A DNA stretch of 64,000 nt. It comes from Geothrix sp. (GTDB taxonomy: Bacteria > Acidobacteriota > Holophagae > Holophagales > Holophagaceae). How positions within the stretch are numbered: position 1 is the first letter of the stretch; every line of letters begins with the position of its first letter. The translations under genes were made by a program, and so were the position numbers. The stretch spans positions 1 to 64,000 of the forward strand of contig JAUXSE010000028.1 of the NCBI GenBank assembly GCA_030681515.1, read 5' to 3'. Positions 26,624 through 30,632 of the stretch are shown one piece after another. The notes below the pieces were generated by a model. It saw nothing but the letters and a program-made list of their open reading frames with translations, ran no database searches and was not told where the DNA came from.

Positions 26624-26920
26624 ATGAAGAAGTTCCTCACCACCGCCTTCCTGTTCACCCTGGCCGCCGTCGCCTTCGCGCAGGGCGCTCCCGCCGTGCA
26701 GAAGAGCCTCTTTGAAGGCCAGTTCGTGGCTCACCTTTCCCTTGCCATCGCCGCCGCCGGTTGCGGCCTGGCCCAGGGCAAGGCCGTGGCCGCCGCCGTC
26801 GAGGGCGTGGCCCGCAATCCCCAGGCCGCAGGCAACATCCGCACCACCATGATCATCGGCCTGGCCCTCATCGAGGCTCTCGTGATCTACGTGCTCGTCG
26901 CCGCCTTCGCCATCAAGTAG
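26624..26920 (+). CDS. atpE: ATP synthase F0 subunit c, with N-terminal signal-like leader
   Basis: A 98-residue c-subunit. Residues 1-20 ([20 protein letters not shown]) look like a cleavable signal peptide, absent in E. coli AtpE (79 residues). Helix 1 has [21 protein letters not shown] and helix 2 has the carboxylate Glu in [13 protein letters not shown]. The helix-1 Gln of sodium-binding c-rings is present (LAQG), but the residue after the Glu is Ala, not Ser, so proton use is more likely. A strong ribosome-binding site (AAGGAGCACC) precedes the ATG. Confidence 0.95.
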
Positions 26921-26937
26921 GCCCATCGCGTTCCGAG

Positions 26938-26971
26938 CGGGGTGTCCAGGATCTGGACGCCCCGTTTTTTT
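26938..26971 (+). terminator. Intrinsic terminator of the F0 operon
   Basis: A 12-bp stem (26938-26949 with 26953-26964, one G-T pair) closes a GAT triloop and is followed directly by seven T residues. It lies 17 bases after the atpE stop and is the clearest intrinsic terminator in the window. Confidence 0.93.
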
Positions 26972-27003
26972 ATGATTTCCCAGAAGAGCCGATGTAGATG
27001 TAG

Positions 27004-28185
27004 ATGCTGGACACCATGAAACACCACGACCTGTTCCCCATGCCGCCGGAAGTCACCCAGGTGATTCTGGGAGGGGGTTCGTCCATTGACCTGGACTCGC
27101 TGCGGATCCATTCGCCCGGCGAGGCCTGGAACTTCGCCCTGAACTACGGCTATGACATGGGCGTCCCGGTCCAGCGGGCAGCGGTCATGCGGGTCTACGA
27201 GGACGCGGTGGACTTTCTGGAGGCGGTGGTGCTGGAGGGGACGGATCTCCACGTCCCCCTGGAGGTGCGGGACCTCCAGGATCCCCTCGATCTGCTGGTG
27301 TGGGCCTCGGACCGCCCACGGAACGCCCGGGGCCGCTGGTCCTGCGCGATCCTCCGGGTGATGCACACGCTCTTCCACGTGGATCACAATGTGAACCTGC
27401 GCTTCCTCCCGGAGATCCAGCGCCAGGTCTTCGGCCGCTATGACCAGTACCTGGTCTGCGAGGAGGAACGCTGGTGCCTGCGGGGGGCCTACGAGGTGCC
27501 CCTGGTGGCCGTGGAGCGCAAGGAGAACAAGGACCGCGTGTCCATGCTCCTGAAGATGCTGCACAAGCCGGGGAACGTGGCGGAGACCATCTACGACCAG
27601 ATCGGCATCCGCTTCGTCGCCGAGGACCAGTTGGGGGTGCTGATGGTCATCCGCTTCCTTCTCGATCACCACGTCCTGATGCCGACCCACATCAAGCCCA
27701 GCCGGAGCCGGAACCTGATGATTGACATGGAGGCCCTGGCCGCCTGGAGCGATTCCATGCCGCCGTTCTTCCGGATCCAGGATCTGGAAACCGAGGAACG
27801 GAAGGTCCTGAGCCGTGCCCTTGCCTTAAAGACCCCCGGCAAAGACCAGAACCCCTTTTCCAGCAAGGAATACTCTGCGATCCAGTTCACGGCCCGGACG
27901 CTGGTGCGCCTTCCCAGCCCCGCCACGCGGGCCCTGGAAACCCTCCAGGCCCGGCTCCAGACCATGGGCGATACGGAGTTGTCGGACCTGGTCCGGATTC
28001 CTGAGTTGCTCCAGGAACAGGAGGAGTTTACTTTCTTCTTCGCACATGAGGTCCAAGTGATGGAACAATCAGGGTTTCAAAGCTCCAGATCCGGTCCGGC
28101 CTCCCATTCAGAATACAAACAGCGCCAGCGTGATGCCGCGAGGCGGCGAGTGCTTCAGGGAATCATTCAGGAGGAACCATGCTGA
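27004..28185 (+). CDS. Uncharacterised protein, TIGR04552-like, possible RelA/SpoT-like fold
   Basis: A 393-residue cytoplasmic protein without membrane segments. I recognise it only as resembling a conserved family of unknown function (TIGR04552, from memory). The middle (about 125-240) contains HVDHNVNLRFLPEIQRQVF, then VERKENKDRVSMLLKMLHK and ETIYDQIGIRFVAEDQ. The order and spacing recall the RelA/SpoT synthetase domain (R-x-K-S-x-S-I-x-x-K-M, then D-x-x-G-x-R). That similarity is my inference. It is followed by a STAS protein with a seven-base overlap, implying joint expression. An alternative start is the ATG at 27016. Confidence 0.55.
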   Translation: MLDTMKHHDLFPMPPEVTQVILGGGSSIDLDSLRIHSPGEAWNFALNYGYDMGVPVQRAAVMRVYEDAVDFLEAVVLEGTDLHVPLEVRDLQDPLDLLVWASDRPRNARGRWSCAILRVMHTLFHVDHNVNLRFLPEIQRQVFGRYDQYLVCEEERWCLRGAYEVPLVAVERKENKDRVSMLLKMLHKPGNVAETIYDQIGIRFVAEDQLGVLMVIRFLLDHHVLMPTHIKPSRSRNLMIDMEALAAWSDSMPPFFRIQDLETEERKVLSRALALKTPGKDQNPFSSKEYSAIQFTARTLVRLPSPATRALETLQARLQTMGDTELSDLVRIPELLQEQEEFTFFFAHEVQVMEQSGFQSSRSGPASHSEYKQRQRDAARRRVLQGIIQEEPC

Positions 28186-28517
28186 ACATCCAGACCCGCC
28201 AAGAAGGCACCGCCTCCGTGGTGTCCATTCAGGGCAAGGTCAACTTCGAGGTGACCGCCCAGCTGCGGGATGTGATCCGCGAGACGGTGGCCACCGCGCA
28301 GCCGAAGCTCCTGGTGATCAACCTGGAGGGTGTCAGTTTCATTGACTCCTCCGGCCTGGGCCTCCTGGTGGCCGCGCGGAACAGCGTGGACAAGTCCGGC
28401 GGGAAGCTCCACCTCTGCTGCCTTCCCGCGCCGGTGAAGAAGACCTTCGACCAGACCAACCTCACGAACTACTTCTCCATCTTCGCCACGGAGCAGGACG
28501 CTCTCCGCGGCACCTGA
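28179..28517 (+). CDS. STAS-domain anti-sigma factor antagonist (SpoIIAA/RsbV type)
   Basis: A 112-residue single-domain STAS protein. The phosphorylation site is in FIDSSGLGLL (Ser57/Ser58), the site where a HPK-like anti-sigma kinase would act in partner-switching systems. Only the dephosphorylated form normally binds the anti-sigma factor. The GGAGGAACC ribosome-binding site lies inside the end of the preceding gene. The next gene encodes a PP2C phosphatase that could dephosphorylate it. No anti-sigma kinase is adjacent. Confidence 0.9.
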   Translation: MLNIQTRQEGTASVVSIQGKVNFEVTAQLRDVIRETVATAQPKLLVINLEGVSFIDSSGLGLLVAARNSVDKSGGKLHLCCLPAPVKKTFDQTNLTNYFSIFATEQDALRGT

Positions 28518-28533
28518 CCGGCCGCCACCCCGC

Positions 28534-29700
28534 ATGGCCAAGGGCGTGGTCCTGGTGGTGGATGACGAAGCACCCATCCGGGACATCCTCAGCTTCTACC
28601 TCAAGCGGGCGGGCTACCAGGTCCTGACCGCGGGCCATGGCCTGGAGGCGCTGGACGAGATGAGCCGGTCCCGGCCGGATCTCATCATCTCCGACCTGCG
28701 CATGCCCGAGATGCCGGGCGACGAGCTGTGCAAGCGCGTCAAGAGCGATCCCGCGACCCGGGATGTCTACTTCATCATCCTGTCCGCGATGGATGGCACG
28801 GCCTCGCGGATCGGCGGCCTGTCCCTGGGCGCCGACGACATGATCCCCAAGCCCTTCCACGCCCAGGAAGTGCTGGCCAAGGTGGAATCCACCTTCCGCC
28901 TGATCGCCATGCAGAAGGAGATCAAGCGCCAGAACAAGGAGCTGACCTCCTTCCAGGAGCGTGTCCGGGAGGAGATGGAACTGGCCGCGGCGCTCCAGAT
29001 GGGCCTGCTTCCCAAGCTTCCGGGGGAGGCGCCCTGTGTGCGCTACACCCACCGCTACCTGCCCGCGGCGGGCATCGGCGGGGACATCTACGCCGTGGCG
29101 CCCCTTCCCGATGGCGGCACGGCCATGATGATCGCGGACGTGAGCGGGCACGGCGTCACCGCAGCGCTCATCTCCGCCATGGTGAAGACCTCCTTCGAGA
29201 ACCAGGTGCGGCTGGGCGGGGAACCCCTGGCCTGGGCCCAGGGCATGAACGAGGACCTCTGCCGGTCCACCCTGGCCGAGCAGTTCGCCACCGCCTGGCT
29301 GGGCCGGCTCGATCCCGCCACGAACCACCTCCGGTACGTAGTGGCGGGCCACTGCGCCCCCTTGCGCATCGTGGGCGGAGCCAAGGGTGGGCTCCAGCGT
29401 TCCGAGGTGCTGCGGGGCAAGGGCTTCATGCTGGGGCTAGATCCCCAGCTCCCCTTCATGGAACATGAGGCGGAATTCCTGCCGGGGGACCGCCTGGTGC
29501 TCTACACCGATGGCCTGGTGGAAGTGGAGCGGGAGGACCGCACCATGCTCGAAGAGGCAGGTCTGCGGCGCATCTGCGCGGAGCTTCCGGCCGGCGCCGA
29601 GGAGGCCGCGGACGCCGTCATCGCCCAGGCCCGCGTCTTCAATCAGCCCGCGATCTTCGGGGACGACGTGACCCTGGTGATCCTCGACCGGAAACCCTAA
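28534..29700 (+). CDS. Response regulator with PP2C-type (SpoIIE) phosphatase output
   Basis: A 388-residue protein. The receiver domain (about 4-120) has D10/D11, phospho-acceptor D54 (ISDLRMPEM) and K106 (PKPF). A short coiled linker (about 125-155) leads to a SpoIIE/PPM phosphatase domain with metal-binding acidic motifs IGGDIYAV, MIADVSGHG, LYTDGLVEV and GDDVTLVI. It probably dephosphorylates the STAS protein encoded just upstream when the receiver is activated. No cognate histidine kinase is adjacent. Its stop overlaps the convergent hldD stop. Confidence 0.92.
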   Translation: MAKGVVLVVDDEAPIRDILSFYLKRAGYQVLTAGHGLEALDEMSRSRPDLIISDLRMPEMPGDELCKRVKSDPATRDVYFIILSAMDGTASRIGGLSLGADDMIPKPFHAQEVLAKVESTFRLIAMQKEIKRQNKELTSFQERVREEMELAAALQMGLLPKLPGEAPCVRYTHRYLPAAGIGGDIYAVAPLPDGGTAMMIADVSGHGVTAALISAMVKTSFENQVRLGGEPLAWAQGMNEDLCRSTLAEQFATAWLGRLDPATNHLRYVVAGHCAPLRIVGGAKGGLQRSEVLRGKGFMLGLDPQLPFMEHEAEFLPGDRLVLYTDGLVEVEREDRTMLEEAGLRRICAELPAGAEEAADAVIAQARVFNQPAIFGDDVTLVILDRKP

Positions 29701-30632
29701 AGGTCCGCCAGGGTGGCGGCGATGCCCGCTTCCAGTTCCGTGAACGGGGCCGTGTAGCCAGCTTCCCGCAGGCTGCGCACGTCCGCCTGGGTGAAGCTCT
29801 GGTACTTGCCGCGGAGTTCGTCCGGAAAGGGGATGTACTCGATGCGGCCCTGCCCCATGAGCGCGATGAGGGTCTTCGCGATGTCGTTGAAGCTGCGGGC
29901 CCGGCCGGTGCCCGCGTTGACGATGGCCTTCGCCATGCCTGCGGCGGCGAAGTGCAGGTTGATGGCCACGATATCGCCCACGAAGATGAAATCCCGCTTC
30001 TGTTCGCCGTCCGCGAAACCGCCCGTACCTTGGAACAGGCGGCAGGCGCCCGTCTCCTTCAGCTGGCGGAGCAGCTGGTGCAGCACGGACATCATGCGGC
30101 CCTTGTGCTGTTCCCGGGGGCCGAACACATTGAAGTACCGCAGGCCCACCACGGGGCTCTGGATGGCGGGCAGGAGGCTGCGCACGTGCTGGTCGAAGGC
30201 CAGCTTGGAGTAGCCGTAGACATTCAGGGGGCCTTCGTTCTCCGGCACCGGCTCGAAGGCGGTGCTGGCCCCGTAGGTGGCGGCGCTACTGGCGTAGACC
30301 AGGGGGGTCTTGCGGGCCAGGCACCAGTGGAGCAGGGCCCTGGAGTCCCCGTAGTTGTTCTCCATCATGTAGCGCCCATCGGATTCCATGGTGTCGGAGC
30401 AGGCGCCGTCGTGGAACACGGCCTCGGGACGGAGATCCAGGGTGCCGGCGTCCAGCCTCGACCGGAACTCGCGCTTGTCCATGTAGTCGGACAGCCTGAG
30501 GTCCGCCAGGTTCCGGGCCTTCTCCGCCCGGAACAGGTTGTCCACCACGAGGATGTCCGTATGCCCGCGGCGGTTCAGCTCCCGCACCAGGTTGCTGCCC
30601 ACGAATCCCGCCCCGCCCGTGACGATGAACAT
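29697..30632 (-). CDS. hldD: ADP-L-glycero-D-manno-heptose 6-epimerase
   Basis: HldD makes the heptose donor for the LPS inner core by epimerising ADP-D-glycero-D-manno-heptose. The 311-residue product has the nucleotide-binding TGGAGFVGSNLVREL, the epimerase signature ACSDTME, SSAATYG and the Y-x3-K pair in VYGYSKLAFD, and FGPREQHKGRMMSV, all typical of HldD. Together with the nearby GT9 enzyme it indicates an outer membrane with heptose-containing LPS. Confidence 0.95.
   Translation of the reverse strand: MFIVTGGAGFVGSNLVRELNRRGHTDILVVDNLFRAEKARNLADLRLSDYMDKREFRSRLDAGTLDLRPEAVFHDGACSDTMESDGRYMMENNYGDSRALLHWCLARKTPLVYASSAATYGASTAFEPVPENEGPLNVYGYSKLAFDQHVRSLLPAIQSPVVGLRYFNVFGPREQHKGRMMSVLHQLLRQLKETGACRLFQGTGGFADGEQKRDFIFVGDIVAINLHFAAAGMAKAIVNAGTGRARSFNDIAKTLIALMGQGRIEYIPFPDELRGKYQSFTQADVRSLREAGYTAPFTELEAGIAATLADL

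Follow-up and report, generated by a model that had tools for sequence, protein, structure and literature searches.

A three-gene operon of Geothrix sp. joining a distant RelA/SpoT-like protein to a STAS protein and a receiver-PP2C phosphatase

The window analysed here comprises positions 1-64,000 of contig JAUXSE010000028.1 of Geothrix sp. (GCA_030681515.1), which will be referred to as C29 among the contigs of this genome. Three genes on its forward strand encode a distant homologue of the RelA/SpoT homologue (RSH) proteins, a STAS-domain protein, and a receiver-PP2C phosphatase. An earlier note on this DNA, made from the sequence, had delimited the three open reading frames, and all of them were recovered at the same positions; the STAS and receiver-PP2C assignments are unambiguous by Pfam.

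27004..28185, + strand: RSH-like protein of the TIGR04562/TIGR04552 family, 393 amino acids (open reading frame and family model match)
28179..28517, + strand: STAS-domain protein with an intact DSSG phosphosite (Pfam PF01740, E 1.9e-23)
28534..29700, + strand: receiver fused to a SpoIIE-type PP2C phosphatase (PF00072, E 2e-24; PF07228, E 2.2e-43)
28549-28884 and 29107-29691, + strand: receiver domain and PP2C domain, respectively, of the 28534..29700 protein (Pfam)
26935..26967, + strand: intrinsic-terminator-like hairpin between atpE and the operon (15 pairs, T-run)

The start of the RSH-like gene is uncertain, as 27016 is as plausible as 27004 when judged from the starts of relatives. Its end overlaps the STAS gene by seven nucleotides (ATGCTGA, 28179-28185), and the identical overlap recurs in 51 of the 58 loci in which the STAS gene was located by script. 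All six receiver/PP2C motifs were found by a motif script in 51 of 55 loci. Since the terminator-like hairpin (-29.7 kcal/mol for the fold of 26915-26985, z -3.84) stands between atpE and the operon, the arrangement suggests that the three genes form a transcription unit of their own; the number of terminator-like sites in the region, two, compares with 1.9 expected in shuffles. A promoter scan of the operon region found no promoter. Downstream, a convergent gene on the minus strand (29697-30632) ends where the operon ends.

Homology and predicted fold of the first protein

The 27004-28185 product matches the TIGR04562/TIGR04552 models over its full length (416 bits against a cut-off of 140, and 390 against 125; E 1e-124). 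With the Pfam model RelA_SpoT (PF04607) it remains below the cut-off (E 0.13, 13 bits against 27), whereas three divergent relatives match this model over the same stretch (E 1.7e-4, 3.7e-4, and 7.5e-4; 0.014 for a closer relative), and a RelA_SpoT match at E<=1 was obtained for 31 of 37 family members (best E 2.2e-8). We therefore class the window protein as a distant RSH homologue and not as an already recognised RSH protein. No further Pfam match was found in it. The TIGR04552 model, applied to 297 genomes of the window's phylum, gave 28 matches, 25 of them above the cut-off; the three below it are long RSH proteins with frames of 727-759 amino acids.

Profile-profile comparison with deeper alignments found local similarity in two colinear blocks (P 1.4e-5 and 4.3e-4). 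With 12 against 3 sequences, an initial comparison had given a weak signal (probability 1%), and a forced global profile alignment put the first block in the wrong place. The family profile run against PDB sequences placed RelSeq 1vj7 on top (E 0.011), with the motif E-x-Q-x12-G-x3-H-x2-Y-K matched gap-free; the window protein searched directly against PDB sequences gave chance Cas9 rows only. Judged from these sequence comparisons, the resemblance of the window protein to RelA/SpoT is real and goes beyond chance.

An AlphaFold model of the protein was built from 37 sequences (pLDDT 88, pTM 0.82). Among the Foldseek matches listed, all 50 are RSH proteins or small alarmone synthetases (SAS; best E 2.4e-3, probability 1.00), with no row reaching E 0.001 and with low TM-scores of at most 0.5. 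Structural comparison by VIA gave Z 9.9 to 5ded (149 residues, 3.5 A) and Z 9.8 to 1vj7 (129 residues, 3.0 A), and FaRel2, CapRel, and Tas1 are among its rows. The first non-RSH row is DNA polymerase lambda (Z 6.4), which is likewise a nucleotidyltransferase. A SYNTH nucleotidyltransferase fold is well supported for the core by this predicted model. The protein ends about 20 residues past the SYNTH core: the TGS and ACT/RRM C-terminal domains of long RSH proteins are absent. The RelA/SpoT-like core suspected in the earlier note is thus upheld by Pfam, by the profile-profile comparisons, and by the predicted fold, which proved to be related to nucleotidyltransferases.

27391..28122, + strand: SYNTH-like nucleotidyltransferase core, residues 130-373 (AlphaFold, Foldseek, VIA)
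27004..27384, + strand: N-terminal helical region, residues 1-127 (fold search without a recognised fold)

Conservation of the active site

Conservation was counted over 110 distinct family sequences, residue numbers being those of the window protein, and counterparts in FaRel2 and SpoT were assigned by motif spacing. The relevant motifs are the following.

27520..27612, + strand: donor-site motifs K176-x3-S180-x3-K184 and D198-x2-G201-x-R203, which map to FaRel2 K66/S70/K74 and D90/G93/R95
27850..27891, + strand: G-loop-like motif N283...Y290-x3-Q294-x-T296 (RSH proteins have His at the position of Q294)
28048..28119, + strand: E349-x-Q351-x12-G364-x3-H368-x2-Y371-K372, spaced as in long RSH proteins

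Fourteen residues (K176, S180, K184, K188, D198, G201, N237, N283, T296, E349, Q351, G364, Y371, and R382) are invariant in all 110 sequences; R203 is Arg in 101 and Lys in 9, and Y290 is Tyr in 106 and Phe in 4. The ATP and Mg2+ ligands given for FaRel2 in the available text of PMC11782079 are R64, K66, S70, K74, R77, D90, G93, R95, E145, and Q147. Most of them are kept: by spacing, eight of the ten have counterparts in the window protein, namely K176, S180, K184, D198, G201, R203, E349, and Q351. The SYNTH domain of Acinetobacter SpoT, described as inactive in the accessible part of PMC9974481, has lost the catalytic residues D272 and Q347; their motif counterparts D198 and Q351 are both kept in 110/110. 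From this pattern we read the window protein as an active pyrophosphokinase of uncertain acceptor. Ten further, more distant members from the phylum that includes a record titled "uncultured Myxococcales bacterium" carry Arg in place of G201 (9 of 10) and His in place of Q294 (7 of 10). These distant members may represent a bridge to the classical RSH proteins.

No HD hydrolase domain was recognised in the window protein by profile and fold comparisons. A degenerate HD hydrolase in the N-terminal region was considered and found no support, hhalign of residues 1-128 against the RSH HD domain giving P 0.12. For a separate model of this region (pLDDT 80), Foldseek rows start at E 4.2, and VIA reaches Z 6.4 at most (RbcX), which is within the range of common arrangements. 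W112 and H121 are invariant in 110/110 family members, and together with the conserved C114 and H125 they lie on one N-terminal helix (27337-27378), which could be a ligand or metal site.

Genomic linkage and distribution of the family

A scan across named genomes turned up 242 relatives, from which 78 loci were kept; together with nine loci from a genome search they form a linkage sample of 87 rows, in which some genomes occur twice. A STAS gene lies directly downstream of the RSH-like gene in all 68 Holophagae rows, counting duplicates. Adjacency in six of these is hidden by stop-to-stop frames, and they were counted as adjacent since the frames overlap. The 68 rows were assigned to Holophagae/Acidobacteriota by title or kinship except for L088 and L100, metagenome-assembled genomes whose titles (Deltaproteobacteria and Bacillota, respectively) clash with their 61-62% identity and the same gene order.

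Phosphosite and phosphatase are either present together or altered and absent together. The STAS tetrad reads DSSG in 59/59 rows with PP2C, whereas in the 9/9 rows without PP2C it is altered to GPSV, DASM, DASV, DSSV, or DAAG. These nine rows represent five distinct, deeper Holophagae genomes (the pairs L025/L107, L026/L110, L027/L115, and L028/L108, plus L029), and the STAS protein of L108 still has a Ser after the Asp. Judged from the sequences, atpB-atpE precede the RSH-like gene in L029 just as they do in the window, and the STAS linkage is therefore in part a matter of inherited gene order. The genes upstream differ in L108 (DUF3014), L110, and L115, where the STAS gene is nevertheless retained. 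As the STAS gene accompanies the RSH-like gene even in loci that lack the phospho-switch, this linkage suggests binding of the STAS protein to the RSH-like protein.

The operon encodes no kinase for the STAS protein. Among the 12 HATPase_c_2 matches in the window genome none is on C29, in agreement with the earlier note, which had found the anti-sigma kinase missing locally; candidates lie on contigs C27, C46, and C66. On C27 (60000-71000), STAS, HATPase, and PP2C genes stand side by side, and this HATPase kinase was found in 41/41 relatives, in one of them weakly.

The family extends well beyond the Holophagae. Above the TIGR04552 cut-off lie 25 of 297 genomes in the window's phylum, 256 of 290 (260 with any match) in a phylum that we label after its record "Bdellovibrionales bacterium", and 90 of 140 in the Myxococcales-record phylum, labelled likewise. 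It is thus a near-universal extra RSH-like gene in the Bdellovibrionales-record phylum, where it is mostly single-copy, and it is common in the Myxococcales-record phylum. The window genome contains one canonical RSH (791-amino-acid frame, same contig) besides the RSH-like protein. Seventeen other genomes that contain the family were checked: a long RSH frame (649-836 amino acids) is present in 16, and the best frames of the 17th have 363 and 375 amino acids. One genome with a long RSH and a TIGR04552 protein has an extra 348-amino-acid frame (C111:5781-6107) that matches RelA_SpoT right at the cut-off.

A universal operon partner of the family was looked for and rejected, as the neighbours differ between groups. 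In the best 30 loci of the Bdellovibrionales-record phylum the gene stands alone, in a fixed order with a pgpA-like/recA side to one end and an alpha/beta hydrolase to the other (names read from the sequences, without a family search), and the flanking genes are on the opposite strand. In four loci (L111, L112, L113, and L119) an FAD-oxidoreductase-like protein and then an Fe-S protein directly follow the RSH-like gene; these names come from a Pfam search on L119, with which the other three cluster. Ten loci of the Myxococcales-record phylum showed no pattern, with one divergent opposite-strand PP2C gene (L207) and one receiver protein (L214) nearby.

A possible nucleotide-type switch and its relation to known systems

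We favour, with a probability of roughly 0.5, the explanation that the operon is a nucleotide-type switch, in which an RSH-type pyrophosphokinase is set by the co-made STAS protein under receiver-PP2C/kinase phospho-control. The first protein would be the pyrophosphokinase, with a SYNTH core and no recognised hydrolase domain. The STAS protein would bind it directly and set its activity, one of its phospho-forms being the active one. The receiver-PP2C protein, driven by a two-component signal, would remove the phosphate from the STAS serine, and an RsbW-like kinase encoded on C27 would put it back.

Several observations weigh against this explanation. With respect to catalysis, the adenine-stacking/phosphate Arg (FaRel2 R64) is not kept, the window protein having E174 and the family Glu in 62 sequences, Ser in 30, and others; FaRel2 R77 is not kept either, position 187 being His in 104 and Gln in 6, next to the invariant Lys at 188; and the G-loop His is replaced by Gln in 109/110. 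The C27 kinase is not operon-specific, as it also occurs in genomes that lack the RSH-like gene. The conserved linkage with STAS and PP2C genes that the earlier note had named as a check stands in part: both genes are conserved in the Holophagaceae and the STAS gene across the Holophagae, but both are absent within 6 kb in 19/19 rows from other groups (some contigs end sooner). Likewise, 30/30 loci of the Bdellovibrionales-record phylum and 10/10 of the Myxococcales-record phylum have no STAS partner, so that the core function of the family does not depend on STAS. Only one class, and few lineages within it, contribute to the linkage evidence, and phosphosite and PP2C may have changed together in a single evolutionary event.

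The alternative that fares best concerns the product. The protein may be an active pyrophosphokinase that modifies an acceptor different from GDP or GTP, for example adenosine nucleotides or the 3' ends of RNA. Its acceptor side is altered, with Gln for His and an insertion between N237 and N283, the known relatives FaRel2, CapRel, and Tas1 use such acceptors, and a canonical RSH or shorter RSH frames are also found in each of the 17 genomes checked. On the other hand, the G-loop Tyr is kept and no acceptor is directly supported. We consider this possible, at odds clearly lower than those of the STAS-set switch, with which it is compatible; it changes the product only.

Less probable is an output through a sigma factor, with a classical partner switch receiving its nucleotide or stress signal from the RSH-like protein and a sigma factor being freed from a kinase/anti-sigma factor encoded in trans. 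A STAS protein with DSSG and a receiver-PP2C are textbook partner-switch parts, C27 carries a STAS-HATPase-PP2C set, and HsbR-HsbA is described to control RpoS in Pseudomonas in the part of PMC6482189 consulted. However, the C27 kinase gene has a STAS neighbour of its own and is present in relatives without the RSH-like gene, and retention of the STAS gene where PP2C is absent and the phosphosite altered is not predicted by sigma control via a kinase; for the same reason we take the RSH-like protein as the probable STAS target. The sigma-factor control proposed in the earlier note is not supported as the output of the operon, which contains neither a sigma factor nor an anti-sigma kinase (the rest of the genome was not searched for sigma factors).

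We think it still less likely that the protein is a pseudoenzyme that keeps the SYNTH fold as a nucleotide-binding or scaffold domain and lacks pyrophosphokinase activity. Such a domain would fit the loss of the G-loop His and of counterparts to R64 and R77, and the pseudo-SYNTH domain of Acinetobacter SpoT (PMC9974481, as far as accessible) is a precedent. By this same precedent, however, loss of the Asp and the Gln is expected of a pseudo-SYNTH domain, whereas more than 100 divergent members of this family retain the E-x-Q pair, the Mg-binding Asp, the G-loop Tyr, and K-x3-S-x3-K. Finally, a toxin-antitoxin pair of a toxic SAS (toxSAS) and a STAS antitoxin, to which the fold shared with toxSAS enzymes and the overlap of the RSH-like and STAS genes might point, is highly improbable and was rejected on distribution, since the gene is near-universal (256/290 genomes), mostly single-copy, and without a partner in the 30 loci examined of the Bdellovibrionales-record phylum, as against the patchy toxSAS, and the window protein, used as the only query, has no match in plasmids or viral contigs.

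The literature searched does not describe this family, a distant RSH branch with a STAS partner in one class, as RSH. In a full-text search (subscription papers being mostly outside its scope) TIGR04552 was named in PMC9888234 only and TIGR04562 nowhere. As far as the accessible text of PMC9888234 goes, its mutation table lists, among the high-frequency mutations of one evolved Bdellovibrio line, a small indel in the TIGR04552 gene, DOE51_RS08710, the evolved lines survive starvation better, and TIGR04552 is not linked to RSH or STAS. Searches joining STAS or partner switching with ppGpp or alarmone gave no STAS-RSH link among the matches listed, and those on Bdellovibrio and RSH or on Holophagae and the stringent response no mention of the family among theirs. 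The available text of the 2011 RSH classification with 30 subgroups (PMC3153485) does not contain the terms Bdellovibrio and STAS.

More tentatively than for the switch itself, we propose that the TIGR04552 family is a branch of RSH proteins that has gone unnoticed, a second synthetase of alarmone type, core in the Bdellovibrionales-record phylum, common in the Myxococcales-record phylum, and in the Holophagae the direct target of a STAS phospho-switch; this would be the first STAS-gated RSH enzyme, possibly with a new product. If true, many genomes thought to have one alarmone enzyme would have two, including most of those sampled from the bdellovibrio phylum, STAS phospho-switching as known for diguanylate cyclases would be extended to RelA/SpoT-type signalling, and a function would be given to a family that is so far only numbered: the NCBIfam entries TIGR04562/TIGR04552 give no function, and the model name makes no connection to RSH or STAS.

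With the SYNTH domain of RSH proteins the window protein shares the predicted fold and the motifs K-x3-S-x3-K, D-x2-G/A-x-R, and E-x-Q...G-x3-H-x2-YK. Unlike RSH proteins, it has its own N-terminal helical region, no recognised HD domain, no TGS/ACT tail, and an insertion before the G-loop, and the Arg at RxK as well as the G-loop His are replaced. The receiver-PP2C and STAS layout resembles RssB/RssC of Pseudomonas, and the model NF045505 matches over almost its whole length (E 3.2e-36), but the receiver-PP2C protein reaches 125 bits against a cut-off of 700 and the STAS protein matches RssC only at E 0.0028.

Similar in principle are the systems in which a STAS or similar partner acts on a diguanylate cyclase. 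According to the accessible text of the respective papers, phosphorylated HsbA, a STAS protein of Pseudomonas aeruginosa, binds the diguanylate cyclase HsbD (PMC5085249), and SiaC activates SiaD, binding and activation being prevented by SiaC phosphorylation (PMC8457831, in which BgrV-BgrR is cited). The Geothrix operon differs from HsbA-HsbD and SiaC-SiaD in that the target is an RSH-like enzyme and not a GGDEF cyclase, the operon is without a kinase, and the interaction is a predicted one. By analogy, the arrangement proposed here would be the same as in these systems, with a small phospho-controlled partner acting directly on a nucleotide-messenger synthase.

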